This document shows positions 4,080 through 40,071 of a DNA stretch of 42,979 nucleotides, piece after piece (within the stretch, counting starts at the first letter, position 1; every line of letters starts with the position of its first letter). Source of the stretch: Parcubacteria group bacterium GW2011_GWA2_40_14 (GTDB lineage: Bacteria > Patescibacteriota > Minisyncoccia > Phycocordibacterales > DATDWN01). The notes under the pieces are model-generated. The model was given only the letters and a program-made list of their open reading frames with translations. It did not search any database and had not been told where the DNA came from. A program made the position numbers and the translations under genes. The stretch lies in NCBI GenBank assembly GCA_000996025.1, contig LBYF01000002.1, forward strand, positions 1-42,979. Reading direction: 5' to 3'.

Positions 4080-4886
4080 ATGAAAAATGCTAAAAATAGA
4101 GTTACAGTGGCTGAAAAAACGATAAAAAACCTAAAAAGAAAGGTAATTGAGATAGCTTCAAAATCAGGAGAAGACCACCATATTGCAAGCGCTTTTTCAA
4201 TCATGGATATCTTGTGGGTTCTATATGAAAAAATTCTTTCAATATTCCCAAATAAACCACAGCATCCAGAGCGAGATATTTTCATTTTGAGTAAGGGTCA
4301 GGCATCGCTTGGTCTATATGCCATTCTTCATGAAAAAGGTTTTTTTGACACAAAAACATTGGAAAGTTTCAGCAAATACAACAGCATTCTTGGTGGACAT
4401 CCAATGAAAAATACCAAGGTTGGTATTGAATCATCAACGGGGTCTTTGGGACATGGCATGCCAATAGCTGTGGGTATTGCCCTTGGCTTAAAAATTCAAA
4501 ATAAAAAACAAAAAGTATTTGTACTCATCGGTGATGGAGAGGCCAATGAAGGAACAGTTTGGGAATCAGCCCTCCTTTCTTCTCATCATAAATTAGATAA
4601 CCTATGTTGTATTATTGACCACAACCATTCCACAGACCGGGCCTTATCTATAGATAGCATGAAAGATAAATTTGAATCTTTTGGCTGGAAAGTCTCTACT
4701 GTAGACGGGCACAATCATAAAGAAATAGAAAAATCCTTAAGAACAAAGCATCCCAAACATCCTCTGGCTGTTATAGCTAACACCATAAAAGGCCATGGAG
4801 TTTCCATGATGAAAGACAATCCGGCATGGCATCGCAAGTCTCCGAACAAAGAAGAATTTGAACTGATAATGAAAGAATTAAATTAA
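4080..4886 (+). CDS. Transketolase, N-terminal (TPP-binding) subunit
   Basis: This is the thiamine-diphosphate-binding half of a split transketolase, which moves two-carbon ketol units between sugar phosphates. At 268 residues it has the family's usual length. GDGEANEG (151-158) and D180 with HNHS (181-184) form the TPP/metal motif. Upstream, STGSLGHG (119-126) and SKGQASLGLYA are also family hallmarks. The partner subunit follows after 9 bases, so the two are co-expressed. In this locus it could make or consume sedoheptulose 7-phosphate for the heptose genes at 20.8-23.8 kb. It could instead serve general pentose metabolism, since CPR genomes often carry such a pair. Confidence 0.9.
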   Translation: MKNAKNRVTVAEKTIKNLKRKVIEIASKSGEDHHIASAFSIMDILWVLYEKILSIFPNKPQHPERDIFILSKGQASLGLYAILHEKGFFDTKTLESFSKYNSILGGHPMKNTKVGIESSTGSLGHGMPIAVGIALGLKIQNKKQKVFVLIGDGEANEGTVWESALLSSHHKLDNLCCIIDHNHSTDRALSIDSMKDKFESFGWKVSTVDGHNHKEIEKSLRTKHPKHPLAVIANTIKGHGVSMMKDNPAWHRKSPNKEEFELIMKELN

Positions 4887-4895
4887 ATAAATATC

Positions 4896-5669
4896 GTGAG
4901 AAAACAATTTGTAAAAACCGTAGAAGAAATATTGGGCAAAAACGAAAAAGTTGTTCTTCTTCTTGGAGATATAGGAGTTTTTGGATTTAGAGAATCTTTT
5001 AAACTTTACCCCACACGTGTATATAACATAGGAATCCTAGAGCAATCCACTATTAGCGTCGCCTCCGGTTTGAGCATGACTGGCCTTATTCCTATTATAC
5101 ACACTATTGCCCCGTTTATAACCGAAAGATGTTTTGAACAAATCAAAAATGATTTCGGCTATCAAAAAATAGTTGTGCCTGGAACGGCAGAAGAATTTGA
5201 CACATTATTCAAAGAATCATACAACAATGGCAATATAACATATTTCAGATTGAGCGAGAGAAAAAATCAAACTGAAGTAAAGGTAAAATTTGGCAAAGCT
5301 AATGTTATAAAGAAAGGAAAACTGGCAACAGTTATAGCTGTCGGTCCGCTTTTGGATAAAGTTATTTCGGCTACTCTAAATCTAGATGTAACCGTAATAT
5401 ATCTAACAACACTGCGACCATTTGATACTGAAACAGTCAGGAAAAATATCGTTGGAAATAAAGTTTTAATATGTGAACCATATTATAGTGGCGCTATTAC
5501 CTCCAATATAATTAATTCTTCAAAGAATCCTCTGAAAATAGACCTTCTAGGAATACCTCATGAATTTCTGACAAATTACGGTAAAATGGAAGAACACGAT
5601 GAATATATTGGGTTTACAGAAAAAGAAATTGAAAAAAGAGTAAAAAAACTAATACGAAGTAACGAATGA
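4896..5669 (+). CDS. Transketolase, C-terminal (pyrimidine-binding) subunit
   Basis: This is the partner of the previous gene. GILEQS (46-51) carries the Glu (E49) that activates the TPP pyrimidine ring. The chain continues through a transketolase C-terminal domain with VIAVGPLLD and YLTTLRPFDTE. It has 257 residues, shorter than the roughly 300-315 of many stand-alone C-subunits. The stretch between about residues 75 and 105 looks condensed (QIKNDFGYQKIVVPGTAEEF), so a loop seems to be missing. The start is GTG at 4896 with no other good choice. The last residues (IRSNE) and the TGA stop lie inside palindrome copy 3. Confidence 0.87.
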   Translation: MRKQFVKTVEEILGKNEKVVLLLGDIGVFGFRESFKLYPTRVYNIGILEQSTISVASGLSMTGLIPIIHTIAPFITERCFEQIKNDFGYQKIVVPGTAEEFDTLFKESYNNGNITYFRLSERKNQTEVKVKFGKANVIKKGKLATVIAVGPLLDKVISATLNLDVTVIYLTTLRPFDTETVRKNIVGNKVLICEPYYSGAITSNIINSSKNPLKIDLLGIPHEFLTNYGKMEEHDEYIGFTEKEIEKRVKKLIRSNE

Positions 5670-10086: not shown

Positions 10087-11061
10087 ATGAGAAATATAAA
10101 CCTTAGCTATGTAATCACTACATACAATAAACTGCCATATTTAAAAAATGTATTGTCTTTACTTATAGAAAATATTAAAGAAGACGAAGAAATAGTTGTG
10201 ACGGACGGAGCTTCCACAGATGGAACTGCCGAGTATCTAAAAAAACTTTTTGATGAGGGAAAAATTCATCAGTATGTTTCTGAAAAAGATTATGGTGAAG
10301 CTCATGGCTGGAACAAAAGCTGGCTTATGGCTAAAGGAGCATTAATAAAAATTATTACAGATGATGATGCTTTTTATTATCCAGGAATACAAAAATGCAA
10401 AGAATTTATGCTCACTCACCCAGAAATAGACGCTATGGGAACAGAGGGATTATTTGCTAAAGTTGTCCATGAATCTGCATTTGTAAACTCGGGAATGTAT
10501 AGTGGAGACCATCCCAGCAAGAGGTCAGATTATACGACAGAATACACGAAATGGAGAGACACCGGAAAACCTTTTGCTTTTTGTGATTTGGGTTGGATGC
10601 TACGAAGAAGTTCTATACCTGTATTTGGTTTATGTGACCCCACATATGTCAGTTTAGACGCAGAGTTTTCCATTAGACTAACTCATGGCAAGGCAAATCT
10701 GGCTTGGTATACAGGAAAAACATGGTCTAGAATATTAAATCCTAACAGTAACAGCGTTTTGTATTATAAAAAAATTTGGCAAGACTATGAAAAACTAAAC
10801 CTCATATATCCCCATTCAAACCTAGAAGACGATCCGTCTCACAAAAAATGGTACAATTTTTTGCCAAAAAATATCAAAGTTCCACTAAAAAAACTACGCG
10901 ATAAAATATTTATAAAAAAACCCGACTCTAGAAACAGCTACACCCCAACAGACGATGACTGGAAAGCTATATTTAAACTGCGAGTAGACGAGCTAACTCA
11001 AGTTTATAATAAAGAAGCGGGTGTATTCATCTACAAGAAGAACCAACTAAATACAAAATGA
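10087..11061 (+). CDS. GT2 family glycosyltransferase
   Basis: A GT-A glycosyltransferase of 324 residues. VITTYNKLPYL (9-19) starts the nucleotide-binding domain. VVTDGASTDGT (37-47) and ITDDDAF (90-96) give the Asp residues that hold the metal and the nucleotide diphosphate. GEAHGWNKSWLMAKG matches the usual GEAxGxNxGxxxAxG pattern of WfgS/WfeV-like enzymes. No membrane segments are visible. It ends in an ATGA overlap with the carbamoyltransferase, so the two are translationally coupled and may act on the same residue (inference). Donor and acceptor are unknown. Confidence 0.87.
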   Translation: MRNINLSYVITTYNKLPYLKNVLSLLIENIKEDEEIVVTDGASTDGTAEYLKKLFDEGKIHQYVSEKDYGEAHGWNKSWLMAKGALIKIITDDDAFYYPGIQKCKEFMLTHPEIDAMGTEGLFAKVVHESAFVNSGMYSGDHPSKRSDYTTEYTKWRDTGKPFAFCDLGWMLRRSSIPVFGLCDPTYVSLDAEFSIRLTHGKANLAWYTGKTWSRILNPNSNSVLYYKKIWQDYEKLNLIYPHSNLEDDPSHKKWYNFLPKNIKVPLKKLRDKIFIKKPDSRNSYTPTDDDWKAIFKLRVDELTQVYNKEAGVFIYKKNQLNTK

Positions 11062-12917
11062 ACAACATCGACAAAACTCTTTTTATAGGAACCAAGTTTT
11101 TTGGACACGACAGCGCTTTGTTTATAGTGGAACCAGATGAAAAAAATATTTTTGGCATGTCTACAGAAAGAATGACGAGGTATAAACACGACCCTCTCTC
11201 CCCCCAAGATGTACTGGAACGCTATATTGAATACAGAAAATTAGATACTAGTAAAGTCAAGCGTATATTTGTTGGATACTCATTTACGACAGACGATTAT
11301 ACTCTACCAGAAGACTTCTACTTTTTTAATAAACATTTTAGGTCTCATTTCAACGTTTCCTTCAAAAAAGATGTTGATCTAAAACTTGTAGAATTCAAGG
11401 GCTATTTTTTAATAAAAAAGATTTATAAACTATTGAGCTCAATCCATGGAATAAAACTGGCTCTGGGACTTTTTTATAACAAAATATTTGGACAAAAAAG
11501 AAAAACTATTAGACTGCATATTCATGACATGTTAGCTAAAAAGTTTCCTAAAGCTAAAATATCTATAGAATGTTATGACCATGAGACTTGCCATGCCATA
11601 TCGTCTCATTATACATCACCATTCCAGGAGGAACTTCTATTTACATTTGACGGTTATGGAGATGGAAACTTCTCAAAAATATTTATTGCAAATAAAGAAA
11701 ATGTCAGAGAAATTGCCACATCAAAATATGAGGAAATAAACATCGGAACAACTGATGAACCGGAAATGCTAATTGGGTCAGTCGGTGTTATATATTCGTA
11801 TTTTACTGGTCTATTGGGTTTTATACAAACTGCTGATGAAGGCAAGGTGGAAGCATTGGCAGCGTATGGAACACCAATCCATAATCTGCTAAATGATATG
11901 GTATCATTATTCTCCATTAACAAAAATAATGGTCTAGAAATAGACCCAAAAAAAGCCGCTATTATACTAAAAAATGACCGTATAAAAAAGATTGTGTCAG
12001 AAAATAAAAAAGAAGATATTGCAGCCAGCGTTCAAAAATTTCTAGAAATCGTCACTAAAAAATACCTCTTGCATATAAAAAACATCGCCCCTTTTAAGGC
12101 GATGTCCTTATCTGGAGGAATTGCCGCAAATGTCATAAACAACCTGGGGATTTTTGAAGAAATAACAGAAAATATTCATGTTATCCCAGCGATGGCTGAT
12201 GATGGTTCTGCTCAAGGCGCCGCTATTATAGCCCTTCTAGACAATGGCTACACATACAACAGTTTATATTGGATGAGAGACCTTATTATGCCCTATTATG
12301 GTACATCCTATACAACTGATGAAATTAAATCTTCCTTTGATTCGCATAAAAAGGAGATTTCTTATGAATTTTTAGGAGAAATTTGGCCAGAAAAAGTCGG
12401 TGAACTTATAGCTCAAGAAAAGATTGGGGCTATTTTCCATGGAAAAATGGAGTGGGGCCCTCGTGCTCTCGGTAATCGCAGTATTTTAGCAAGTCCATTG
12501 AAAATTGATTTTCGAGACAGAATAAACAAAGAGATAAAGCGCAGACCAGCATTTCAACCTTTTTGTCCTTCTATACTAGAAGAGGAACGAGAAAGACTGT
12601 TCGACAAGTCATACGAAAACAAACATATGACATGCGCTTTCCATATGAAAAAAGAATTCGCCGAGCAACTTCAAAGCGCAGTGCATATAGACGGCACTGC
12701 CAGAGCCCAATTTGTAGAAGAGAAAGATAATCCACAATATTATCGCATACTGAAAAAAGTTAAAGAATTGACAGGATTTGGTGTTATAATTAACACATCT
12801 TTCAATAAACACGGTAGAACTATCGTAGAATCCCCTAATGACGCGATAAGAGACTTCATAGACACAGATATGGATTATTTAGTGATAGAAGGATTCCTCG
12901 TCAACCGAAAGAAATAA
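11058..12917 (+). CDS. NodU/CmcH-type O-carbamoyltransferase 1
   Basis: This would transfer a carbamoyl group from carbamoyl phosphate, via carbamoyl-adenylate, to a sugar hydroxyl. Family marks are GHDSAL near the N-terminus, YDHETCHAISSHYTS and LSGGIAANV in the Kae1-like half. MEWGPRALGNRSIL, FQPFCPSIL and INTSFNKHGRTIV lie in the C-terminal YrdC-like half. Its 619 residues are within the family range. A second member lies at 38360-40069 and differs in length and sequence, so two positions may be carbamoylated. It is coupled to the upstream GT2 by ATGA. Confidence 0.9.
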   Translation: MNNIDKTLFIGTKFFGHDSALFIVEPDEKNIFGMSTERMTRYKHDPLSPQDVLERYIEYRKLDTSKVKRIFVGYSFTTDDYTLPEDFYFFNKHFRSHFNVSFKKDVDLKLVEFKGYFLIKKIYKLLSSIHGIKLALGLFYNKIFGQKRKTIRLHIHDMLAKKFPKAKISIECYDHETCHAISSHYTSPFQEELLFTFDGYGDGNFSKIFIANKENVREIATSKYEEINIGTTDEPEMLIGSVGVIYSYFTGLLGFIQTADEGKVEALAAYGTPIHNLLNDMVSLFSINKNNGLEIDPKKAAIILKNDRIKKIVSENKKEDIAASVQKFLEIVTKKYLLHIKNIAPFKAMSLSGGIAANVINNLGIFEEITENIHVIPAMADDGSAQGAAIIALLDNGYTYNSLYWMRDLIMPYYGTSYTTDEIKSSFDSHKKEISYEFLGEIWPEKVGELIAQEKIGAIFHGKMEWGPRALGNRSILASPLKIDFRDRINKEIKRRPAFQPFCPSILEEERERLFDKSYENKHMTCAFHMKKEFAEQLQSAVHIDGTARAQFVEEKDNPQYYRILKKVKELTGFGVIINTSFNKHGRTIVESPNDAIRDFIDTDMDYLVIEGFLVNRKK

Positions 12918-14026: not shown

Positions 14027-14878
14027 ATGATAATCATTAAATTGATGGGTGGACTTGGTAATCAAATGTTTCAATACGCCTTGGGACGCAATTTGTCTTT
14101 GATACACAACACTCCTTTTAAAGTAGACTATTCGTATTTAAAAGTACCGAACCAAAGCCAGAGGACTTTGAGAGTGGGCAACTATAGAACAATATTAGAA
14201 GAAGTTACGGATAAAGAAATTGCTTCTTATACATCTACTTTTCAAAAGATTCTAGATAAAATACGCTCAAATAAAAAAATGATTGTAGAAAAATCAAATA
14301 TTTTTGACCCGAACATTTTACTCCAAAATGACGGATATTTTTATGGATATTGGAATGACGAGAAATACTTCGAAGCAAACGAGAAAATAATAAGGGATGA
14401 TTTTAAGCTTAAAGCACCTTTTGGAAAAAGTGCAGAAGCGATTTTAGAAAGAATAAATGTTCTATCAAATTCAACTAGTATACATATTCGTCGTGGAGAC
14501 TATGTTTCTATCAAAAAAATTGCTGATACGCATGGAACTCTTCCATTCTCATATTATGAAAATGCTATAGATAAAATTAAAGACAAATTTCCCGATGTTA
14601 CATTCTTCGTTTTTTCTGATGATATTGAATGGGCAAAGAAAAATTTTCCAAGAAAATATTCAATTATTTTTGTCTCAAATCCTCTTATACCAGATTACGA
14701 AGAACTCATGCTAATGAGTCTCTGCAAACACAACATCACTGCAAATAGCACATTTAGTTGGTGGGCAGCATGGTTAAATGCAAATCCAAATAAGATTGTT
14801 GTTGCGCCAAAAAAATGGTTTGTTGATGAAACCAAATATAATGATGATTTAATCCCGGAAAATTGGATAAAACTATAA
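14027..14878 (+). CDS. GT11 family (alpha-1,2-fucosyltransferase-like) glycosyltransferase
   Basis: This is a 283-residue GT-B enzyme of family GT11. MGGLGNQMFQYA (7-18) is the N-terminal family signature, HIRRGDY (153-159) is the conserved GDP-sugar-binding motif, and NSTFSWWAAWL (240-250) closes the active site. It should transfer fucose or a related GDP-linked sugar in alpha-1,2 linkage. It accompanies the GT10 enzyme, but no GDP-fucose synthesis genes are seen here. The ATG directly abuts the GIY-YIG repeat; an insertion there would have replaced any original ribosome-binding site. The next gene starts one base after its stop. Confidence 0.93.
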   Translation: MIIIKLMGGLGNQMFQYALGRNLSLIHNTPFKVDYSYLKVPNQSQRTLRVGNYRTILEEVTDKEIASYTSTFQKILDKIRSNKKMIVEKSNIFDPNILLQNDGYFYGYWNDEKYFEANEKIIRDDFKLKAPFGKSAEAILERINVLSNSTSIHIRRGDYVSIKKIADTHGTLPFSYYENAIDKIKDKFPDVTFFVFSDDIEWAKKNFPRKYSIIFVSNPLIPDYEELMLMSLCKHNITANSTFSWWAAWLNANPNKIVVAPKKWFVDETKYNDDLIPENWIKL

Positions 14879-14879
14879 T

Positions 14880-15926
14880 ATGAATATTGAAAAACCTATA
14901 GTGACAGTGGTCATGGCAGTTTACAACAATGAGAAATACATCCAAACAGCAATTGATAGTATTTTGGGTCAAACTCTAAAGAATCTTGAGCTGATTATTA
15001 TCTATGATTTATCAAGTGACAGAACAAAGGAAATTGTCAGTGGATATAATGATTCTCGTATTATATTTATAGAAAATAAGGAAAGACTTGGTCCTGTGTC
15101 CTCGCGTAACATTGGACTAAAGCGAGCTAGAGGAATTTATATAGCTATTATGGATGGAGATGATATCAGTCTTCCAAAGAGACTGCAAAATCAAGTGGGG
15201 TATATGGAAAGAAATAAAGACATAGCAATTTCTGGAACTTGGTCAAAAACATTTGGAGCAAAACATAACTATATTACTAGACACCACACAGACCCAGACC
15301 AGATTAAAGCTAACCTGCTTTTCCGAACTTCTCTTACTCATTCTTCTATTATTATGAGAAGAGAATTTATGAACAAGCATAATATTACATATACTGAAAA
15401 CCAAATTCCTCCTTTTCCTGAAGACCTAGATCTCTACTCTAGGGTATCTCGTATCGGAAAACTTGGTAATATAAATAAGGTCTTACTGCTCTATAGAAAA
15501 CACCAAGAGCAATCTTCCAAAGAAAATGTGGGCATTCAAATAGAGCACGCAAGGCGAATTTTGGCTTATCAATTAAATAATCTTGGTATTATCCCAACTG
15601 AAAAAGATATAGACACACTTATTTCTTTCAAAAGATATCTTTTTTTGGACGATTCCAACTTTTTTGGTGAACTTGAATTGTTATTTGATAAAATTATAAA
15701 TGCCAATAAAAAAAGCAATACCTACAAAGAAAAAGCTTTAAAAAAAGTATGTGGTGAAGTTTGGCTTGAGACAGCTATTGCATATTCCATAAATAACGAA
15801 AATGCATGGAAAACATTTTGCAATGGTGCTCCTGGGCGGTGGATCAAACTTTCACCGCGAAATGTGGCTAAAATTTTAAAGCTTCTGTTTAAAACTATTG
15901 TACTTATATTTAAAAATAATATCTAA
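14880..15926 (+). CDS. GT2 family glycosyltransferase with extended C-terminus
   Basis: A 348-residue GT-A enzyme. VVMAVYNNEKYI (10-21) and DLSSDRT (43-49) begin the donor site, and MDGDD (91-95) is the DxD-type metal site. FPEDLDLYSRV gives the catalytic ED region and LLLYRKH a late family motif. The C-terminal 120 residues are alpha-helical and unassigned. The protein at 26685-27713 is a paralogue with the same C-terminal extension (compare KIINANKKSNTYKEKAL with KIIKANVRTNVYAKESL). Its 3' end overlaps the convergent epimerase gene by 4 bases. Specificity is unknown. Confidence 0.87.
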   Translation: MNIEKPIVTVVMAVYNNEKYIQTAIDSILGQTLKNLELIIIYDLSSDRTKEIVSGYNDSRIIFIENKERLGPVSSRNIGLKRARGIYIAIMDGDDISLPKRLQNQVGYMERNKDIAISGTWSKTFGAKHNYITRHHTDPDQIKANLLFRTSLTHSSIIMRREFMNKHNITYTENQIPPFPEDLDLYSRVSRIGKLGNINKVLLLYRKHQEQSSKENVGIQIEHARRILAYQLNNLGIIPTEKDIDTLISFKRYLFLDDSNFFGELELLFDKIINANKKSNTYKEKALKKVCGEVWLETAIAYSINNENAWKTFCNGAPGRWIKLSPRNVAKILKLLFKTIVLIFKNNI

Positions 15927-16870
15927 CCGAAAAGCTTGGGATTCTTTTGTAAATAAGCCACTGTCTTTCGTATACCATCCTTAATACTAAACTGGGGCTT
16001 CCAACCCAAATGTCGCAGTTTTTTGTTATCCAGATGGACAAAGTTGTTATCCCCCTTCCAACCACGATTACCTCCTTTGTACTTTTTCTTGATGATAATA
16101 TCGGCAGAACTCAAAATTGTATCTACTATTTCATCTATAGTCAAAACGCCATCATGACCAATGTTGAAAATATTTACTTCTCCCTTTTTAACTTTGTCTA
16201 TAACCATAAAGATGCCTCGTATGGCATCTCCGATATATACTGAAGACTTCTTTGGTGTTCCGTCAGAAAAAAGCGGGAGAACTGTTGCGCCATTCTTTAT
16301 TTTCTTGAGCACATCAAAAATTATTCCGTGAGTATATCTTTCACCTATAAATGAAGCGAATCGGAAAATGTAGGCATTCCAACCATAGTAGCTGGCATAG
16401 GAGCGTATATAGCCCTCCGCAGCTGCCTTTGTGGCTCCATATAACGACGTAGGTTCAAATGGATAGGATTCAGGGGTCGGATGTACCTTAGCGTCTCCGT
16501 ATACTGATGATGTAGAGGCAAATGCTATGTTTTTAACATTATTCTTTTTCATTGCCTCTAAGACTGACTGGGTAGCTTCAAGATTCTGCATATGGTCAAC
16601 GTCATGATTGAGAAAACCTGCTTTAGTATCAGCATGAGCTGCAAAATGAAAAACAAAATCTACTCCACTCATGGCTTTAGATAATTTTCTAGTATTAAGC
16701 ACATCTCCCTTAACTAAACTAAATTTTTTATTTTTTAAGTTATGTTCAATAAAAAGCTTCTTACCCGTTGAAAAGTTATCATAGACAATAACCGAGTGGC
16801 CACGTTTTAAGACATAGTCAGCTATATGAGAACCTATGAACCCTGCCCCACCAGTGACTAAATATTTCAT
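15923..16870 (-). CDS. NAD-dependent nucleotide-sugar 4-epimerase (GalE-like SDR)
   Basis: A 315-residue extended SDR. TGGAGFIGSH (6-15) binds NAD, STSSVYG (119-125) holds the active-site Ser/Thr, and YGATK (144-148) is YxxxK. Its overall shape is that of UDP-glucose/UDP-GlcNAc 4-epimerases. It is the last gene of a five-gene minus-strand operon starting at 20754, coupled to the upstream oxidoreductase by an ATGA overlap. It could epimerise the product of the upstream unusual dehydrogenase (inference), or make UDP-Gal/GalNAc. Confidence 0.87.
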   Translation of the reverse strand: MKYLVTGGAGFIGSHIADYVLKRGHSVIVYDNFSTGKKLFIEHNLKNKKFSLVKGDVLNTRKLSKAMSGVDFVFHFAAHADTKAGFLNHDVDHMQNLEATQSVLEAMKKNNVKNIAFASTSSVYGDAKVHPTPESYPFEPTSLYGATKAAAEGYIRSYASYYGWNAYIFRFASFIGERYTHGIIFDVLKKIKNGATVLPLFSDGTPKKSSVYIGDAIRGIFMVIDKVKKGEVNIFNIGHDGVLTIDEIVDTILSSADIIIKKKYKGGNRGWKGDNNFVHLDNKKLRHLGWKPQFSIKDGIRKTVAYLQKNPKLFG

Positions 16871-17844
16871 AATTTTTTATATGATTGCTTAATAATTTCT
16901 AAAACATATTTTGCTTCTCTCAAAGACTTGTTGCTAACATCGTGTTTACGTATTTTTTGAAAAAAGATGTTGCACTCTCTTTTCCATGATAAATCCTCGT
17001 CAGGGAAATTATGCTCGGTTATTTTTGGTGGTCCCATTTTTTTACTCATTTTATACAATGTTAGTTTTTCTGCACCGTAACTTCTACCTAGCCCATCTAT
17101 TTGAATTTTTGCTGTCCGGAGCATTATTTCAAAAGAAAAGAGATTTTTCCACTCAAGGCAAGTTGCTGATAAATTTGCGGCCACATTCCCACCCTTTAAA
17201 AGCAAGAAGGATGTATCCTCAAGTTTTGTTTTCCAAAAAAGAGTTCCGACGAAACTGCCATGATACTTCAATTCTCCAGAGAAATAATTCACCAAATCAA
17301 TAAGATGAGACCCTTGATCCAAGAGTTCGCCTCCACCTGCTATATCTTTATCAAATCTCCATTCTTTTTCGTATCCTAATCTTCCTCCATGGCCGTACTT
17401 GGCTCGAATGAACAAAACTTCACCGAATTTTTTTGAATCAACAATTTCTTTTGCCTTAAGTATTGCCGGATGATACCTGTGATTATAGCCGAACATTACC
17501 ACCACTTTTTTATATCCATAAGCTTTAATGATTTCTTCCAAATCCTTGGTACTCCTCCCTCCAGGTTTTTCTACTAATACATGTTTGCCATGCAAGATAG
17601 CTGACGCAGCAATTTTAGATAAATATTTATTAGGTGTTGATATAATTAATGCTTCTATATGGAAATCATTTACTACTTTTTTCCAATCTGTCTCACTCTG
17701 ACAGTTAAATTCACGGGCAAACCTTTGCGCCTTTTTTTTATCTGTATCGCAAATAGTAGCTAAGTGTGCACCCTTTGGCAGAAATAAGGCCCTTTTCCTT
17801 CCTATTAAACCTGCTCCAATGATTGCAACATTTATTTTTTTCAT
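16867..17844 (-). CDS. Gfo/Idh/MocA family oxidoreductase
   Basis: An NAD(P)-dependent sugar oxidoreductase. With the ATG at 17844 the protein is about 325 residues. AIIGAGLIG (7-15) is the Rossmann loop and EKPGG (92-96) carries the family's Lys. The C-terminal half has the AGGGELLDQGSHLIDL motif with the conserved Asp and His. The frame is open upstream to 17925, but that start would lie inside the dehydrogenase gene and add residues before the Rossmann strand. The chosen ATG is 4 bases after the upstream TAG stop. Family members oxidise or reduce sugar nucleotides at C3 or elsewhere; the substrate here is unknown. Confidence 0.87.
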   Translation of the reverse strand: MKKINVAIIGAGLIGRKRALFLPKGAHLATICDTDKKKAQRFAREFNCQSETDWKKVVNDFHIEALIISTPNKYLSKIAASAILHGKHVLVEKPGGRSTKDLEEIIKAYGYKKVVVMFGYNHRYHPAILKAKEIVDSKKFGEVLFIRAKYGHGGRLGYEKEWRFDKDIAGGGELLDQGSHLIDLVNYFSGELKYHGSFVGTLFWKTKLEDTSFLLLKGGNVAANLSATCLEWKNLFSFEIMLRTAKIQIDGLGRSYGAEKLTLYKMSKKMGPPKITEHNFPDEDLSWKRECNIFFQKIRKHDVSNKSLREAKYVLEIIKQSYKKL

Positions 17845-17848
17845 ATTA

Positions 17849-19132
17849 CTATATTCCCATTCCAATGTATGTGAAACCATTCTTTCTGTATAGATCGGCC
17901 GGAAGAAAGTTTTTTGTGTCAACAATAACAGCCTTATTCATGAGAGGCGCAATGGTCTGTGGGTTAATTTCCTTAAACTCATCCCAATCAGTCATTAACA
18001 CCACCATATCAAGTTTACGGAAAAAATTCGGAAGCTTTGTACAGACTTCAATGAAGGGGCTACTTGCAATAGGCTTTTTTATTGCTGGATCAAAAGCCTT
18101 AATGATACAACCTTTAGCTTTCAGTAGCACTGCCAACTCTAGCGACATTGACCTTCTCAAAGTATCAGTTTTAGGTTTATAGGTCAATCCAAGAATTCCT
18201 ATGGTTTTACCCCTAAGTGAGAAATTAGGAATCATTATTTTTTTAAGAAGCATGGGCAATCTGCCTTTGTTGACAGCATATACTGCATCAAGTAACTTTG
18301 ATGCAGTATTGGTCTCTTTGGCTATTTTCCGAAGAGATTGAACGTCCCTACCTAAAGTCCCACCACCAAACCCTAGTCCTGGGTTTAGTGAAGCGTGTGG
18401 ACTGACTCGTTTATCTGATTTCAGAGCTTTTACCACGTCCGTCATGTCCGCCCCTACTTTTTCTGAAATATCAGACAGTTCGCTACTCCAGGAAATGCAG
18501 AGGGCGAGGTAGCTATTCAAGGCATGTTTAACCATTTCTGCACTTTCCAAGCCCATAGTTATAATTGGGCAATTAAACGAAAAATTGCGTTCAAATTGCT
18601 TTAATTCTTCACTATTATCTGACCCCAAAATGATGCGGTCCGGTTCTAAAAAAGATGAGAAAGCTTGACCGAGTTTTAGGTTCTCAGGAAAATAGACTAC
18701 TTTTGGATTCTTCCATCCTTTTTTCTTTAAAACATTAATCAAAGTTCTTGATGTCCCAACCGGAATCTGGCTTGATATGACAATAACGGTTCGAGATGAT
18801 ACGTTTGCGGCGACAATTTTAAATAGTTTCTTAATTATACTCATATCAGAGGTATCTTTGTCATCAACCTCCACATCATAAGTGATGAAAATATAATCCT
18901 TATCTCTCAAAATCTTTTCTTCCGTAGAAAAGATTAAATTTTTGTTTATATGTTTTTTCAATAGTTCGTCAAGATCAGGCTCAAAAATTGGTGTAATCCC
19001 TTTATTAAGATTTTTTATTAAATTTTTATCAATATCAAAACCAAAAACATTAAACCCTAGTTTGGCTAAAGATGTTGCATAAACACAACCCAAGTGCCAA
19101 AGTCCAACAACTGCAACATTTTTATTTTTCAT
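17849..19132 (-). CDS. UDP-glucose/GDP-mannose dehydrogenase family protein lacking the catalytic Cys
   Basis: The 427-residue chain follows the nucleotide-sugar 6-dehydrogenase plan. VAVVGLWHLG (6-15) binds NAD, PVGTSR (124-129) is the conserved Thr loop, and PENLKLG (149-155) carries the Glu. AEMVKHALN (198-206) holds the active-site Lys202 and Asn206. In ordinary members the next motif is GFGGSCFPKD, whose Cys forms the thiohemiacetal. Here it reads GFGGGTLGRD (254-263), with Thr259 in place of Cys. A full alcohol-to-acid oxidation by the usual mechanism is therefore unlikely; a single oxidation step is possible (inference). It overlaps the upstream SDR by 11 bases. Confidence 0.85.
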   Translation of the reverse strand: MKNKNVAVVGLWHLGCVYATSLAKLGFNVFGFDIDKNLIKNLNKGITPIFEPDLDELLKKHINKNLIFSTEEKILRDKDYIFITYDVEVDDKDTSDMSIIKKLFKIVAANVSSRTVIVISSQIPVGTSRTLINVLKKKGWKNPKVVYFPENLKLGQAFSSFLEPDRIILGSDNSEELKQFERNFSFNCPIITMGLESAEMVKHALNSYLALCISWSSELSDISEKVGADMTDVVKALKSDKRVSPHASLNPGLGFGGGTLGRDVQSLRKIAKETNTASKLLDAVYAVNKGRLPMLLKKIMIPNFSLRGKTIGILGLTYKPKTDTLRRSMSLELAVLLKAKGCIIKAFDPAIKKPIASSPFIEVCTKLPNFFRKLDMVVLMTDWDEFKEINPQTIAPLMNKAVIVDTKNFLPADLYRKNGFTYIGMGI

Positions 19133-19967
19133 AAAAAAAATCGTTATCTATTCTCCGTAATTTAAACAAGTCATTCTTCTTTAACTTTTTCAAGATATCA
19201 GTCCTATCCCATTTAGCGCTTAACAATCTTCCACTTATATGATCTGCCTCGGGTGAGCATAGAAAAGCTACCAAACTAGTAATTTGCTCTGTGGAACTTT
19301 CCCCTTCTTTCTTTTGTTTCAAAGCGTCATTGTACATTTGGAGTCCAGCTTTCTTTTGTCCTTGGGCGATCAAATAATCCGTGATGCCCGTATTGACCGA
19401 ACCGGGCGAGATACAGTTCACTTGTATGCCTAATACCCCAATCTCTGTGGCTAGGGTCTCCGTAAAACCAGAGACAGCAATCTTTGATGTATAGTAAGCT
19501 GAAAAGTTAGGTAATGCTTTTTTCCCACCTATACCTCCTCCAGCCAAATTGACAATCTTGCCCTTTTTTTGTTTTTTCATAATAGGCAACACAAATCGTG
19601 TGCAATATACGGTCCCAAAGACATTTGTTTCTATTGTTTTTGTCCACTTTTTCAAGTCCGCCCTGGTAAACTCCCCAATTTCACCATAAATCCCAGCATT
19701 GTTGATTAATATATCAATGGTCCCAAATTTTTTTAGAGCAAAATTTATCAGCCAACGACAATCAGAAATTTTAGAAACGTCAGCCGTAATACCAAAAAAT
19801 CTTTTGCCGGTTGGATCTATTTCTCTAGAAATTGCATCGACATCTTCCTTTTTCCGCGCACAGATAAGTACTGTAGCCCCACGTTCAAAAAAATTCGTAG
19901 CGATTGCCTTACCAATGCCTTTTGACCCTCCAGTAACTATGACATATTTACCGCTAAAATCATTCAT
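19122..19967 (-). CDS. Classical SDR oxidoreductase with atypical active-site Ser
   Basis: A 281-residue classical short-chain dehydrogenase. VTGGSKGIGKAIA (11-23) is the TGxxxGxG loop, INNAG (88-92) the central motif, and YYTSK (158-162) the YxxxK pair. The strand that normally carries the catalytic Ser reads VNLAGGG (139-145), so Ser appears replaced by Ala or Gly. The fold is certain; activity may be altered or may use another residue. A C-terminal extension beyond 250 residues holds SAKWDRTDILKKLKKND. It starts one base after the transaldolase gene ends and overlaps the next gene by 11 bases, so it belongs to a coupled operon. Confidence 0.83.
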   Translation of the reverse strand: MNDFSGKYVIVTGGSKGIGKAIATNFFERGATVLICARKKEDVDAISREIDPTGKRFFGITADVSKISDCRWLINFALKKFGTIDILINNAGIYGEIGEFTRADLKKWTKTIETNVFGTVYCTRFVLPIMKKQKKGKIVNLAGGGIGGKKALPNFSAYYTSKIAVSGFTETLATEIGVLGIQVNCISPGSVNTGITDYLIAQGQKKAGLQMYNDALKQKKEGESSTEQITSLVAFLCSPEADHISGRLLSAKWDRTDILKKLKKNDLFKLRRIDNDFFYEK

Positions 19968-19968
19968 A

Positions 19969-20754
19969 TTAGAGTTGTTTTTTTAGCGCTTGCCATGATG
20001 CATCAAAATCTGCATTGGTTTCAATTGTTCGCTGACTATAGAGCATTGCTTGGAGTACAGCAGGTTGAATTGTTACAATATTTGCACCAGCAGCAAAGGC
20101 CTGGCCAATCTGTGATACATTGCGAATACTGCCAACAATCAACTTTGGAATATCATATCCACCACTTTTTAGAAAATTTATAAGCCCCTCTGTAATTTTT
20201 GCTGGATGAGAATTTACATCAGTTAGCTGTCCAAGGATTGGATGATTTTTCTGAAACTCATTACTAGTTCTATATTTCTCTTGATCCTCAATACTGCGAG
20301 CCCAAAATAAACTAACGAATGACGGTGTTGGGTGATTTCTGATTGCTAGTGATGCGATTACTAGTTGTTCAAAGTTCATCATTGCAGTAACGTTCACAGG
20401 AATCTTTAAGTCGCCAAGTTTTTTTATAACATTTAAACACTTTATGTCCGAGGGAATCATTGGGACCTTAACAATAATATTCCTGGCAATTTGTCTGTAT
20501 TTTTTTGCTTCGCTGACCATTTGTTCAATACTGGCAGTACTATCCGTAAGCTCAATGGAAACCGGTTTGTCATTCATTATCTTACAAATCTTTTTGATTG
20601 TCGGGATTACTTGTTTCAAAGTCAATCCATCTTTTAGCATAATGCTTTGATTTGTGGTAACGCCATCAATAATCCCCGTAGCGTTCCATTTTTCAATTTC
20701 TTTTACACTGGATGAGTCAAGAAAAATACTGCGGTTATAATCAATTTTTTTCAT
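19969..20754 (-). CDS. Transaldolase family protein (TalC/Fsa-like)
   Basis: A 261-residue TIM-barrel aldolase. FLDSSSVKEIEKW (11-23) and GVTTNQSI (31-38) match the transaldolase start, and NIIVKVPM (92-99) carries the Schiff-base Lys (K96). NVTAMM and FVSLFWAR follow, where short transaldolases have similar segments. It is larger than the compact FSA group (about 220). It may move three-carbon units to balance sedoheptulose 7-phosphate for the heptose genes just upstream, or make or split a special ketose for this operon (inference). A Shine-Dalgarno sequence (AAGGAAAAG on the minus strand, 20762-20770) precedes the ATG. It is first in a five-gene operon. Confidence 0.85.
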   Translation of the reverse strand: MKKIDYNRSIFLDSSSVKEIEKWNATGIIDGVTTNQSIMLKDGLTLKQVIPTIKKICKIMNDKPVSIELTDSTASIEQMVSEAKKYRQIARNIIVKVPMIPSDIKCLNVIKKLGDLKIPVNVTAMMNFEQLVIASLAIRNHPTPSFVSLFWARSIEDQEKYRTSNEFQKNHPILGQLTDVNSHPAKITEGLINFLKSGGYDIPKLIVGSIRNVSQIGQAFAAGANIVTIQPAVLQAMLYSQRTIETNADFDASWQALKKQL

Positions 20755-20818
20755 ATTATTACTTTTCCTTTTTTAGATTATAAGTGATATAATATACTCT
20801 TAATTAGCAATTTGCAAT
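20755..20818. promoter_or_regulatory. Divergent promoter region, transaldolase operon / gmhB
   Basis: This spacer separates two divergent operons. A plus-strand TATAAT lies at 20788-20793, 25 bases before the ATG at 20819. A minus-strand TATAAT lies at 20777-20782, 22 bases before the ATG at 20754. Neither has a convincing -35 box at the normal distance. Two near-consensus -10 boxes so close together suggest back-to-back transcription; this is based only on motifs. Confidence 0.5.
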
Positions 20819-21409
20819 ATGAAAAATAGGGCTTTATTCATAGATAGAGATGGCGTAATCAACCATATGATATTGCAAAAGAATGGCAACTTTGATTCCC
20901 CGCAAAATCCCGCCCAAATCATGCTTGTGGATGGCGTTGTTGATGTAATTTTACTAATGAATAATCTAAATATTCCTGTTATAGAAGTATCCAACCAACC
21001 CGGAGTTGCCCTTGGAAAAATGAATTGGCAACTTCTAGAGAATATAGAAAACAAGATTCATTCTTTACTTAATGAACGAGGAGTACATATACATAAATCT
21101 TATCGATGCTTCCACCATCCAGAATCTGGTATAAGTGACCTTAAGATGATTTGTCAGTGTCGAAAACCGAATCCCGGACTTTTGCTACAGGCAACCTCTG
21201 AATACAAACTAGACCTTGAACAATGTATCATTTTGGGAGATAATGCTACTGATATGGAAGCTGGCAGAAAAATCGGGTGCAGGACCATACTCTTTTTTCA
21301 TACAAACGACCTGCCACACAAGATAAAGACTAAAGAAACATATCCCGCTGAATTCAGAGTTCGCTCACATGCCGAAGTTATTCCTATATTAAAAAAATTA
21401 TTTTTATGA
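20819..21409 (+). CDS. gmhB: HAD phosphatase, D-glycero-manno-heptose-1,7-bisphosphate phosphatase-like
   Basis: A 196-residue HAD-IIIA phosphatase. FIDRDGVINH (7-16) has the nucleophile and acid Asp (DxD). EVSNQPGV (56-63) is motif II. C97, H99, C112 and C114 match the Zn-binding loop of GmhB, followed by CRKPNPG (114-120) with the Lys of motif III. GDNATDMEAG (140-149) is motif IV. GmhB removes the C7 phosphate from heptose 1,7-bisphosphate. The next gene, a guanylyltransferase candidate, overlaps by ATGA, and the kinase and isomerase genes lie just beyond, which supports this role. A histidinol-phosphatase activity is a less likely alternative. Confidence 0.87.
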   Translation: MKNRALFIDRDGVINHMILQKNGNFDSPQNPAQIMLVDGVVDVILLMNNLNIPVIEVSNQPGVALGKMNWQLLENIENKIHSLLNERGVHIHKSYRCFHHPESGISDLKMICQCRKPNPGLLLQATSEYKLDLEQCIILGDNATDMEAGRKIGCRTILFFHTNDLPHKIKTKETYPAEFRVRSHAEVIPILKKLFL

Positions 21410-22128
21410 AAGCTATAATTGTTGCAGGTGGTACAGGAGGACGACTGCGACCGCTGACTGATAACATTCCGAAGCCGATGATTGAAATTTCTGGTAAACC
21501 CATTCTGGAGCATATCATCAATTTTTTAGGCAAAAATGGTGTTAAAGATATTATTCTTGCCTTATGTCATTTACCCGAGCCAATCATGAATTATTTCAAA
21601 GATGGCAAAGATTTTGGTGTAAATATCACCTATGTTTTTGAGGACCCAAAAGTACCTATGGGCACTGCAGGGGCAATCTTCTCCGCCCGCAAGCACATAT
21701 CTGATACATTTATTGTGGAATACGCAGACACATTAAGAGAACTTGATGTTGAAGAAATGATAAAGTTTCATAAAGCATCTGGAAGCTTTGCCACTATTAA
21801 TGCATATCAACATCGTGGCATTAATCATAAAAGTACTTTGCATTTTACCGAAGATAATATACTTACTAAATTTGAAGAACGTCAAACCTCACAAAACCTA
21901 GAGAAAGGTTTTGCTTGGTCAAACGCTGCCTTTTATATATTCAATCCAGAAATATTTGAATATATCAACGAAAATACAAAATCAGATTTTTCACATGATA
22001 TTTTCCCAAAATTATTATCACTGAACAAAAAGATTTCTGTATTTCCCACTACAAGTTATTTAATGGATATCGGAACGATAGAAAGTTTAGAGAAAGCTAG
22101 AGAGGATATGGCTAAAAAGTCTGCCTAA
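21406..22128 (+). CDS. hddC: Heptose-1-phosphate guanylyltransferase-like nucleotidyltransferase
   Basis: A 240-residue GT-A nucleotidyltransferase. VAGGTGGRLRPLT (6-18) is the nucleotide-binding loop; the usual GTR reads GGR, a small departure. IPKPM (21-25) carries the conserved Lys, VEYADTLRE the metal-site Asp, and YLMDIGTIESLEKA the closing family motif. Its place beside gmhB, gmhA and hddA homologues suggests D-glycero-D-manno-heptose 1-phosphate guanylyltransferase (HddC), giving GDP-heptose. From sequence alone another hexose-1-phosphate nucleotidyltransferase is possible. Its last 4 bases overlap the convergent gmhA gene. Confidence 0.8.
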   Translation: MKAIIVAGGTGGRLRPLTDNIPKPMIEISGKPILEHIINFLGKNGVKDIILALCHLPEPIMNYFKDGKDFGVNITYVFEDPKVPMGTAGAIFSARKHISDTFIVEYADTLRELDVEEMIKFHKASGSFATINAYQHRGINHKSTLHFTEDNILTKFEERQTSQNLEKGFAWSNAAFYIFNPEIFEYINENTKSDFSHDIFPKLLSLNKKISVFPTTSYLMDIGTIESLEKAREDMAKKSA

Positions 22129-22709
22129 CTTCGTAATTTCGGATGTGTGACAATTGAGTGCCAGATGACAGCTTGAAAACTTTCCGAAAGTGGTGTAATC
22201 AGTTCAGGTTCCGAAATGGGAAGATGAATTGATACTTTTGCCACTTTTTTGGTATAACCTCCATCACGACTTACAATACCAAGAATTGGACTACCCACTT
22301 TTTTTGCAAATTCCAAAGCTTTAACAATATTAACGCTTATGTTTTTTTCTATATTTCCGCCACCAACAGAAAAGACCATAACCACATCATTTGAACTTAG
22401 TTGGCTAACCTCTAACCACTTATTAAAGACAGTATCAAAGCCATCATCATTCGCGCGGGCTGTCAATTCAGAGACATTATCCGTAGGGGCATAAGCTTCT
22501 ATCTTGCAAATTTTGCGAAAATCATTTACTGCGTGAGAGCAGTTTCCGGCAGACCCGCCAACACCGAGTAAGAAAAGTCTGCCGCCTTTTTTCTTGAGAT
22601 TGACTAGGACTTTTATAGTTGCCTCAATTTCTTGTCGATTAATTTGACCTATGAGCTTGACTGCAGCATCTAGGTACATCCCAATATAATTTGTCATTTT
22701 TGTTTGCAT
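22125..22709 (-). CDS. gmhA: Sedoheptulose-7-phosphate isomerase-like SIS protein
   Basis: A 194-residue SIS-domain protein. FLLGVGGSAGNCSHAVNDF is the phosphosugar-binding Ser loop, with the His of the GmhA metal site. VSELTARANDDGFDTVF matches the GmhA segment that reads SxxxNDxGFxxxF. MVFSVGGGNIEKN is the second loop, where the usual STSGNS is changed to SVGGGN. GmhA converts sedoheptulose 7-phosphate to D-glycero-D-manno-heptose 7-phosphate. The kinase gene lies 4 bases upstream in the same operon. ATG 22697 (Met5) is an alternative start. Confidence 0.83.
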   Translation of the reverse strand: MQTKMTNYIGMYLDAAVKLIGQINRQEIEATIKVLVNLKKKGGRLFLLGVGGSAGNCSHAVNDFRKICKIEAYAPTDNVSELTARANDDGFDTVFNKWLEVSQLSSNDVVMVFSVGGGNIEKNISVNIVKALEFAKKVGSPILGIVSRDGGYTKKVAKVSIHLPISEPELITPLSESFQAVIWHSIVTHPKLRS

Positions 22710-22713
22710 AATG

Positions 22714-23772
22714 TTAAAAATTCAGTACAACTTTACTACCTTCCATATCAAATCGCACCTTCGTCTCTTCCAAACCTATTTCTTTCATCCTTTTTCTAAA
22801 AGCCGACTTATTATCTTTAACATAAAAGACAAACCAACCTCCGCCTCCTGCACCCATTATCTTTCCTCCAGAAGCTCCACTCTTCATGGCTTCAGCATAC
22901 CATCTGTCTATCTGGGAATTAGAAACATGCTTTGATAATGTTTTCTTTATCTGCCAATGTTTGTCAAGGGTAACGCCAAAACTATCTACATCACCCTTCA
23001 AAAGATATTCTTTAGCTTTTTGACCTAATTTTTTTATATCATCCAGAGCTTTAATATGCCTTGCTGTAGCATGCTCTTTCTGGTCCGCAAGTGCTAAACT
23101 GGTATCCCTTAATATACCCGTTCTAAAAAACAAAAGGTTTGATTCCAATTCTAGAATTGTATGTAAAGATAAATGCAAAGGATAAACTGTAACCTTCCCT
23201 GTCGTATCCCTTTCAAAATATTTAAAACCTCCAAGAGCAACGATGTATTGGTCTTGCGGACCAATAAAATCACGACCTATCTTAAAACGCTCAATAGAAA
23301 AAGCTTTCTTTGCCAAATCAAGCTGTGAAATAGATTCTCTCTTTAAGCAATATAAAGCATTCAATAGTCCAACCTCTAGAGCTGCTGAACCACCTAAACC
23401 AGACCTTCCTGACACTTCCGAGTTAATATTGAGACTTACTCCGCTTAGTATTCCCGTGTGTTCAAGACAGGCTTTAACATATGGGTTTGGAATATCTTTG
23501 TATGAATGGCCTTGCGTGGCTTCCTGGCCATATGAGTAACTTATAAAGTTCGGATTCTCGCCCATAGTCAGTGTCACAACTAAATAGCGATTAATGGAAA
23601 CACTGACCCAAGCTCCACCGTGAAGATTACTGTACCAATCAACATCTGTTCCCCCACCAGAGAGTGTAATGCGCATAGGTGTTTGAGTAACTATGACCGC
23701 CCTATCGCGAGAATTATGAGCATAGTAGTTTTCCTTGGGATTTTTACCCATCTTTTTCTGAATTTTTGACAT
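22714..23772 (-). CDS. hddA: D-glycero-D-manno-heptose 7-phosphate kinase-like GHMP kinase
   Basis: A 352-residue GHMP kinase. TPMRITLSGGGTDVDWY (31-47) is the N-terminal family motif of HddA, GRSGLGGSAALEVG (122-135) the ATP loop, and GGKIMGAGGGGWFVFYV the C-terminal motif. HddA phosphorylates heptose 7-phosphate at C1 for the GDP-linked branch, in contrast to HldE of the ADP branch. The ATG at 23772 is chosen because a TATAAT box with a matching -35 ends 6 bases upstream. The longer open frame to 23862 would start upstream of that promoter. gmhA follows after 4 bases. Confidence 0.88.
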   Translation of the reverse strand: MSKIQKKMGKNPKENYYAHNSRDRAVIVTQTPMRITLSGGGTDVDWYSNLHGGAWVSVSINRYLVVTLTMGENPNFISYSYGQEATQGHSYKDIPNPYVKACLEHTGILSGVSLNINSEVSGRSGLGGSAALEVGLLNALYCLKRESISQLDLAKKAFSIERFKIGRDFIGPQDQYIVALGGFKYFERDTTGKVTVYPLHLSLHTILELESNLLFFRTGILRDTSLALADQKEHATARHIKALDDIKKLGQKAKEYLLKGDVDSFGVTLDKHWQIKKTLSKHVSNSQIDRWYAEAMKSGASGGKIMGAGGGGWFVFYVKDNKSAFRKRMKEIGLEETKVRFDMEGSKVVLNF

Positions 23773-29912: not shown

Positions 29913-31394
29913 ATGAGAGTTTGTCTGAATGTTCCACCTTCTTTGATACTTTCTGATGAGAGATTGATGATGCATCTCGGCATCCTAAAAGTCGGAAGTG
30001 TATTGAAAGAAAAAGGAATTCCCGTGGATCATTTAGATCTCTCGGGAGTAAAAAACTACACAGCTGTGATAAAAACCTATATCGCCGATAATGATACACT
30101 CATTTTCGGCATTACCGCAACCAGTCCGCAAATCCCCGCTTCTGTTGCGCTGGTCAAAGCAATTAAGGAAAAGAGACCGGAGGCCAAGGTTATCTTGGGT
30201 GGATCTCACGTCACCTTAGTCAATGCCGCCTTTCGCAAAGAAGTTGCCAAAGGAATTTCCGGAAGAGCGACTCGTGCCTTTCAAAAACTGGATGGGTTGT
30301 TTGACACCATGATTGCCGGTGATGGAGAGCTTGCAATGCTTCATGCTTTGGAAAATCCAAATCTGAAGTTTATTGATGCAGACGATCCAAAGTCAGATCT
30401 TTTTCTCAATTCTACCTCGCTTAATGCGCTACCGTGGCCAGCAAGAGACCTTGTCGATGTTCCAAGCTACAAATACACGATCGATGGAATACGCGCCATC
30501 ACTATGATTCTACAGCTTGGATGTCCATTTGGTTGTGGTTTTTGCGGAGGCAGAGAATCACCATTCCTTCGCAGAGTCAGGTTGCGGGACACAGAAAATG
30601 CCATCGCCGAAATGCGACACATCTATGAGACATATGGTCTAAGAGGTATCATGTTTTACGACGATGAACTCAATGTTAACCCGCAAATGATTCCCTTGAT
30701 GCACGGCATCGCTAGACTCGGAAAGGAGCTCGGAATAGAGTGGAAGTTGCGAGGGTTTGTAAAATCTGAACTCTTTACAGCAGAACAAGCTTCGGTAATG
30801 TACGAGGCGGGATTCAGAGAAATCCTCATCGGCTTTGAGTCTGGTTCACCCCTCATCCTGAAAAATATTAACAAACGGGCAACAAAAGAAGACAACACAA
30901 GATGCGTTGAGCTCGCTCGAGACGCCGGTTTGCGTGTAAAAGCTCTGATGTCCATGGGGCATCCCGGGGAGAGTGAACAAACCGTGAGAGAGACTGAAGA
31001 ATGGATTCTGGCAATGAAGCCAGACTCATTTGACTTGACTCGTATCACAGTTTATCCAGGCACTCCGTATTTTGACCACGCTGTGCCGCATGCAACCCAA
31101 GATGGTGTCTGGATATACACCATAAACGGCTCCAATCTCTACTCTCGCGAAGTAGACTTCACGACAAACTTCCTCTACTACAAAGGTGATCGAGGTGATC
31201 GGATGGGTCTCAACCAATTTTTCACTTTTACTGACTTCTTGTCAGCAGAAGACCTGGGTCAACTCAGGACAGAAACTGAAACTCGACTGAGAGAAAAACT
31301 AGGACAACCATTCCAAGATGATGCTCCAGCTATCCAGTTTGAGCATTCTATGGGTATGGGTCTGCCAGAACACATCTTACGAAGTTCTAGCTAA
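29913..31394 (+). CDS. B12-binding-domain radical SAM protein
   Basis: A 493-residue protein with an N-terminal cobalamin-binding-like Rossmann domain (about 1-160: IFGITATSP, VILGGSHVT, AGDGE) and a radical SAM barrel. The barrel has the cluster motif CPFGCGFC (204-211; Cys204, 208 and 211). FYDDELNVN, GFESGS and GHPGES are typical of this family, which includes methylases and cyclases; the substrate is unknown. The DxHxxG His ligand is not evident. The gene has its own promoter, Shine-Dalgarno sequence and terminator, and visibly higher GC than its neighbours (31 of 60 G/C at 30541-30600 versus 19 of 60 at 8041-8100). It is a candidate for recent acquisition. Confidence 0.9.
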   Translation: MRVCLNVPPSLILSDERLMMHLGILKVGSVLKEKGIPVDHLDLSGVKNYTAVIKTYIADNDTLIFGITATSPQIPASVALVKAIKEKRPEAKVILGGSHVTLVNAAFRKEVAKGISGRATRAFQKLDGLFDTMIAGDGELAMLHALENPNLKFIDADDPKSDLFLNSTSLNALPWPARDLVDVPSYKYTIDGIRAITMILQLGCPFGCGFCGGRESPFLRRVRLRDTENAIAEMRHIYETYGLRGIMFYDDELNVNPQMIPLMHGIARLGKELGIEWKLRGFVKSELFTAEQASVMYEAGFREILIGFESGSPLILKNINKRATKEDNTRCVELARDAGLRVKALMSMGHPGESEQTVRETEEWILAMKPDSFDLTRITVYPGTPYFDHAVPHATQDGVWIYTINGSNLYSREVDFTTNFLYYKGDRGDRMGLNQFFTFTDFLSAEDLGQLRTETETRLREKLGQPFQDDAPAIQFEHSMGMGLPEHILRSSS

Positions 31395-40069: not shown

Positions 40070-40071
40070 TC

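Follow-up and report, generated by a model that had tools for sequence, protein, structure and literature searches.

The window analysed here is the whole 42,979-nucleotide stretch of contig LBYF01000002.1 from Parcubacteria group bacterium GW2011_GWA2_40_14, a small groundwater-type bacterium whose genome measures about 0.64 Mb. This stretch holds a cassette of nine genes (15923-23772, three short operons), which includes a nucleotide-sugar dehydrogenase with Thr in place of its catalytic Cys and a short-chain dehydrogenase/reductase (SDR) with Gly in place of its catalytic Ser. We lean toward the interpretation that the cassette would make a nucleotide-activated, probably GDP-linked, long-chain sugar in a series of steps like that of the lincosamide octose pathway, and that the Cys-less dehydrogenase would yield a C6 ketone. 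The two altered enzymes and their motifs lie as follows:

17849..19132, minus strand: Cys-less nucleotide-sugar dehydrogenase of the UDPG_MGDP_dh family, 427 amino acids, with Thr259 for Cys (PF03721/PF00984/PF03720 and predicted fold)
18344..18373, minus strand: motif GFGGGTLGRD, residues 254-263, read from the translation (Thr259 codon 18356-18358)
19085..19105, minus strand: altered dinucleotide loop G10-L-W12-H13-L-G15-C16 (GxGYVG in canonical enzymes)
19122..19967, minus strand: classical SDR, 281 amino acids, with Gly143 in place of the catalytic Ser (PF00106)
19533..19553, minus strand: SDR motif VNLAGGG, residues 139-145, from translation and alignment

The window dehydrogenase scored above the Pfam cut-offs for PF03721, PF00984 and PF03720, which places it in the family by sequence, and it reached 302 bits with TIGR03026 (cut-off 190). 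None of the equivalog (enzyme-specific) models matched at its own cut-off. The structural model (predicted local distance difference test, pLDDT, 95) had the UDP-glucose dehydrogenase fold, with a template-modelling (TM) score of 0.92 to 4a7p. Alignment to 4a7p and 3gg2 put Thr259 of GFGGGTLGRD on the catalytic Cys, and Lys202, Asn206 and Asp263 on the catalytic Lys, Asn and Asp, just as an earlier note on this DNA had read them. A second family member in the same genome (contig C16, partial) retains the Cys, in GAGGHCFIKD.

An 84,980-species genome collection was scanned with a three-protein seed alignment, consisting of the window enzyme and its counterparts on the Lawsonia intracellularis and Rhizobium jaguaris plasmids; the peptide patterns used for collecting relatives did not contain the Cys motif. 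The scan gave 187 relatives, from which 80 loci were kept and 77 full sequences were aligned. Thr occupied the Cys position in 77/77 full-length relatives, while Cys was present in 13/13 canonical comparison enzymes. It was also found in all canonical enzymes from the Actinomycetota and a Streptomyces-like genus for which the motif was read; these have GGSC, nearly all together with STVPVG-type and PEFLRE motifs. Fifteen members obtained pattern-free, through whole-genome protein or profile searches, all carried Thr, GGTLxRD and PENLxLG. In the tree, a single branch with a support of 100/99 separated the Cys-less enzymes from 13 canonical enzymes, a small outgroup in which some branches are long. 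The earlier note had asked whether Cys-less members form a clade of their own, and the tree answers in the affirmative; GGT is invariant among them, and they share their gene neighbours. It had also considered a Cys supplied from elsewhere in the active site. Inspection of the alignment columns revealed no conserved replacement: the sole Cys present in more than 90% of the members, at column 223, is Ser in the window enzyme.

The changes extend beyond the Cys. From an alignment of 229 NDP-sugar dehydrogenases, 18 invariant residues have been listed with their roles, Cys260 among them, and Tyr10 was described as the catalyst of the final thioester hydrolysis (PMC4794789). In that numbering, Cys260, Lys204, Asn208, Asp264 and Arg327 correspond to Thr259, Lys202, Asn206, Asp263 and Arg326 of the window enzyme. 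Human UGDH with Cys276 mutated to Ala fails to finish the reaction when starting from UDP-glucose (PMC3184952). Within the Cys-less family, 14 of the 18 invariant residues were retained or mostly retained, those lost being Cys260 (Thr), Thr118 (Gln), Gly9 (Trp) and Gly257 (Ala/Ser). The residues of the first oxidation, Glu141, Lys204, Asn208 and Asp264, were each present in 77/77, and the NAD-contact residues Asp29 and Arg327 were retained. Tyr10 was replaced by His and Thr118, at the catalytic-water site, by Gln, both in 77/77, so the family lacks the residue pattern of a four-electron enzyme. Glu145 was replaced by Leu in 76/77. Judged by the alignment, much of the second half-reaction is removed as a set, with a new fixed set of residues in its place. 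With several second-half-reaction residues missing at once, the straightforward reading would be an oxidation that goes no further than a carbonyl. To this extent the earlier proposal, that an alcohol is oxidised only to an aldehyde or a ketone, holds up; the aldehyde appears less favoured than a ketone at a secondary C6.

The same note had taken the NAD loop as kept, which proved incorrect. Where GxGxxG is expected, the window reads GLWHLG, with Trp12 at the middle Gly position. Trp and His13 were found in 77/77, a count that is partly biased for Trp, as one search pattern contained GLWH. Among the 15 pattern-free members, Trp was seen in 13, with one having Tyr and one being unreadable at this site. 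The Trp could mean that the cofactor is held tightly or sits in an unusual place.

The model of the partner SDR showed an ordinary SDR fold (pLDDT 92). Its KIVNLAGGG stretch puts Gly143 where the catalytic Ser would be, as the note had noticed, and Tyr158 and Lys162 are retained. Gly at the Ser position, Tyr158 and Lys162 were each found in 71/71 partner SDRs and Asn in 70/71, so the Asn-Ser-Tyr-Lys tetrad is incomplete. The residue preceding Gly143 was Ser in 62, Ala in 6 (the window included) and Cys in 3. Given the invariance and the single well-supported group, the Cys and Ser replacements are not decay. The SDR and dehydrogenase genes overlap by 11 nucleotides (nt), the transaldolase and SDR genes are spaced by 1 nt, and the ATG of the Gfo/Idh/MocA gene (17844) lies 4 nt past the dehydrogenase stop. 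The coupling proposed for a five-gene operon is therefore as tight as described, but the system is larger and comprises nine genes, of which the other seven are:

15923..16870, minus strand: extended SDR, NAD-dependent epimerase/dehydratase, 315 amino acids (PF01370; YxxxK in 68 homologues)
16867..17844, minus strand: Gfo/Idh/MocA oxidoreductase, 325 amino acids, from ATG 17844 (earlier TTG 17925; PF01408)
19969..20754, minus strand: transaldolase of the TAL_FSA family, 261 amino acids (PF00923; Lys conserved in 48 homologues)
20819..21409, plus strand: HAD-IIIA phosphatase, GmhB-like, 196 amino acids (profile match under the GmhB equivalog cut-off)
21406..22128, plus strand: sugar-1-phosphate nucleotidyltransferase, 240 amino acids (PF00483; HddC 109 bits, cut-off 300)
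22125..22709, minus strand: SIS-domain sugar-phosphate isomerase, GmhA-like, 194 amino acids (PF13580; gmhA 53 bits, cut-off 209)
22714..23772, minus strand: GHMP-type sugar kinase, HddA-like, 352 amino acids, from ATG 23772 (earlier TTG 23862; PF00288/PF08544; HddA 175 bits, cut-off 600)

In the Gfo/Idh/MocA enzyme, EKP and further catalytic-site residues were conserved across 68 homologues. Conservation also extends to the active-site residues of the remaining enzymes, so the cassette is not decayed. RmlB-type dehydratases have Asp-Glu at a site where the cassette epimerase reads STSSVYG. Identity to the Lawsonia cassette proteins was 44% for the Gfo/Idh/MocA enzyme and 55% for the SIS isomerase.

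Flanks of 9 kb or more on either side were available for 40 loci; all nine genes were present in 23 of these, the Gfo/Idh/MocA gene in 39, and the dehydrogenase and SDR together in all 40. The order epimerase, dehydrogenase, SDR, Gfo/Idh/MocA, kinase, nucleotidyltransferase, isomerase, phosphatase, transaldolase (EPI-UGD-SDR-GFO-GHMP-NTP-SIS-HAD-TAL) was found in 15 loci. The order and orientation of the window recurred in three contigs of the Candidate Phyla Radiation (CPR), one from Taylorbacteria and two from Daviesbacteria (L024, L025, L028). Pairwise identities were correlated among the nine genes, and those of the dehydrogenase and the SDR gave the strongest correlation of all cassette gene pairs (Spearman 0.87); the value for the epimerase and the Gfo/Idh/MocA enzyme was 0.85. 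The hosts belong to CPR lineages, Chloroflexota, Acidobacteriota, Pseudomonadota, Planctomycetota, Verrucomicrobiota, Lentisphaerota, Myxococcota, Chlorobiota, Actinomycetota, Nitrospirota, Elusimicrobiota, Cyanobacteriota and Bdellovibrionota, with two archaea in addition. The archaeal cases are contigs of metagenome-assembled genomes (Nitrosopumilaceae and Methanoperedens; L034 and L036); the aligned Methanoperedens stretch contains one TAA, probably the gene's own stop. In the pig pathogen Lawsonia intracellularis, the complete nine-gene cassette sits on the large plasmid (L020, 3748-20297), where it is annotated as generic enzymes only. In the literature searched, we found no published description of the cassette, of Lawsonia with a transaldolase, or of Cys-less dehydrogenases.

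Within its phylum the cassette is rare, being present in the genome studied here and in one other (G1365) among 240 genomes, and no close homologue was found in 60 near-relative genomes. These counts led us to reject vertical inheritance and to favour transfer. The rarity in CPR and the lack of a close homologue in near relatives fit a cassette that moves horizontally, as far as the genomes compared can indicate.

The GDP-octose part of the lincosamide pathway is laid out in published gene lists comprising lmbR, N, P, K, O, M, L, Z and S (PMC4351081, PMC12945683). By analogy, the cassette transaldolase would add three carbons to a sugar phosphate, and the SIS isomerase would turn the resulting ketose phosphate into an aldose phosphate. 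The GHMP kinase would then phosphorylate C1, the HAD phosphatase would strip the terminal phosphate, and the nucleotidyltransferase would attach the nucleotide. The epimerase, the dehydrogenase, the Gfo/Idh/MocA enzyme and the SDR would subsequently remodel the sugar. A chain of eight carbons is probably favoured, with seven being possible. C6 of a hexose is a primary alcohol that can be oxidised twice; in a C7 or C8 sugar it is secondary, and therefore oxidation by the Cys-less dehydrogenase would end at the ketone. We infer that the Cys and the hydrolysis residues are not needed because the C6 oxidation stops there. The SDR would probably reduce or isomerise the keto-sugar, in replacement of the LmbS transamination. 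In cassettes outside the CPR, a GtrB/ArnC-like glycosyltransferase may load the sugar onto polyprenyl phosphate for a surface glycan. Such a transferase was found in 21 loci at 150 bits or more, 15 of them within 1.5 kb of the cassette. The gene at 5288-6334 of L021, with homologues in 20 other loci at 49-82% identity, is a candidate transferase for the product sugar.

A redox-neutral cycle is a possible, if rather doubtful, alternative. Here, the Cys-less dehydrogenase would act as a dehydratase or epimerase: it would keep its NAD bound, oxidise C6 transiently so that either the C8 hydroxyl is lost or an inversion takes place, and return the hydride, with the SDR then reducing the keto-sugar. 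The route from GDP-octose to GDP-lincosamide reportedly includes 6-epimerisation, 6,8-dehydration, 4-epimerisation and 6-transamination, according to a 2020 report. The Trp12/His13 loop could favour a cofactor that does not dissociate, although Trp12 could serve another role. This alternative also gains from the assignment of the entire conversion of GDP-octose to GDP-lincosamide to LmbM, LmbL, CcbZ and CcbS (PMC12945683).

We consider it unlikely that the cassette is a modified GDP-heptose pathway, in which the transaldolase just supplies sedoheptulose 7-phosphate, the other four activation enzymes are those of GDP-D-glycero-D-manno-heptose, and a C6 ketone is still made. The kinase, phosphatase and isomerase do have HddA, GmhB and GmhA as their nearest NCBIfam models, and the Rhizobium cassette transaldolase scores above the cut-off of TIGR02134, a general transaldolase model. 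However, the heptose equivalog cut-offs were reached neither in the window nor in the Rhizobium cassette, and in the window most were missed widely (HddA 175/600, HddC 109/300, gmhA 53/209 and GmhB 114/178 bits). Moreover, the dedicated transaldolase accompanies the cassette even where a full pentose phosphate pathway is expected (Rhizobium, Paraburkholderia).

That two adjacent genes encode enzymes lacking their catalytic Cys and Ser, respectively, might suggest that both proteins are non-catalytic regulators or scaffolds that bind sugar nucleotides. This is very improbable, as Lys202, Asn206, Asp263, Glu150 and Arg326 of the dehydrogenase and Tyr158 and Lys162 of the SDR are invariant over very divergent members, and each altered position has settled on one new residue, which decay would not bring about. 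Identity with the bradyrhizose operon, an 11-gene cluster of photosynthetic Bradyrhizobium in which a gene annotated as dTDP-glucose 4,6-dehydratase, resembling the cassette epimerase, stands with other sugar-modifying genes (PMC4743980), is scarcely credible and was rejected: among 272 Bradyrhizobium-like genomes, 4 had the cassette dehydrogenase and 27 had reaction-centre genes, with an overlap of 0, few candidates being scored per genome so that a miss is possible. In the wider family, reaction-centre genes occurred in one of ten cassette-bearing genomes (G310), which lies outside the cassette carriers of the Bradyrhizobium-like genus.

Our preference stays with the octose-like route to a C6 ketone, and several points speak against it. 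The C6 position is taken solely from where canonical enzymes act. Trp12 in the dinucleotide loop may impair NAD binding, and the transaldolase, given the TIGR02134 result for its Rhizobium member, may make just sedoheptulose 7-phosphate. An LmbS-type aminotransferase was recognised neither among the open reading frames of the window nor among the recurrent cassette neighbours, and no GtrB-like gene was found in the window. LmbL was sought in 397 genomes of Actinomycetota and 296 of the Streptomyces-like genus and was not recognised there, the other enzymes read being canonical; a cassette-type dehydrogenase was recognised in only two of these genomes (G064 and G817).

More tentatively, we propose that an undescribed, widespread cassette makes one particular C8 nucleotide sugar for surface glycans in many phyla and in archaea, and that its two hallmark enzymes may be new catalytic types. 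One would be a UGD-fold enzyme with the Thr/Gln/Leu/His/Trp set, by which a C6 ketone is made or passed through transiently, and the other an obligate partner SDR that works independently of Ser. If this is true, the building of C8 sugars known from lincosamide antibiotics would be widespread as a route to surface sugars, reaching even a genome as small as about 0.64 Mb. With most of its second half-reaction replaced, a two-step dehydrogenase fold would have become an enzyme that catalyses a single ketone-forming (or redox-neutral) step. The signature SQxPVG, PENLxLG and GGTLxRD would let annotation pipelines avoid miscalling such proteins as UDP-glucose 6-dehydrogenase.

Other genes of the glycan region of the window were noted as well. 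A GT11 (fucosyltransferase-family) gene lies beside the cassette at 14027-14878 (PF01531), and similar genes occur near the cassette in L024 and L029; known GT11 members use GDP-fucose. By eye, two neighbouring genes at 4080-5669, with products of 268 and 257 amino acids, were recognised as a split transketolase, which could feed sugar phosphates to the transaldolase. Two NodU/TobZ-like carbamoyltransferase genes (11058-12917 and 38360-40075) amid glycosyltransferases and a probable radical SAM protein that begins with a B12-binding-like part (29913-31394) were likewise identified by eye.

Compared with known systems, the Cys-less family has the domain make-up, fold, catalytic Lys, Asn and Asp, and Glu141 in common with the UDP-glucose, GDP-mannose and UDP-ManNAc dehydrogenases. 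Where those enzymes carry Cys, Tyr10, Thr118, Glu145 and Gly9, the Cys-less family has Thr, His, Gln, Leu and Trp. The classical SDRs (FabG, glucose 1-dehydrogenase and gluconate 5-dehydrogenase) are like the partner SDR in fold, TGxxxGxG loop, Asn, Tyr and Lys, but they carry the catalytic Ser, for which all of the aligned cassette SDRs have Gly. The GDP-D-glycero-D-manno-heptose pathway (GmhA, HddA, GmhB, HddC) has an equal order of activation steps for a long sugar phosphate; the cassette differs from it in the dedicated transaldolase and four extra oxidoreductases, and in falling short of the heptose equivalog cut-offs.

The lincosamide pathway matches eight of the nine cassette genes, by enzyme class only. 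The classes are transaldolase (LmbR), isomerase (LmbN), kinase (LmbP), phosphatase (LmbK), guanylyltransferase (LmbO), epimerase (LmbM), dehydrogenase (LmbL) and oxidoreductase (LmbZ); LmbL is a homologue of UDP-glucose dehydrogenase and LmbZ is a Gfo/Idh/MocA protein. The lincosamide pathway contains LmbS and the genes for thiosugar and amino-acid condensation, which are missing from the cassette. Unlike the lincosamide clusters, the cassette has an extra, Ser-less SDR locked to its dehydrogenase and occurs in many phyla, often amid glycosyltransferases.

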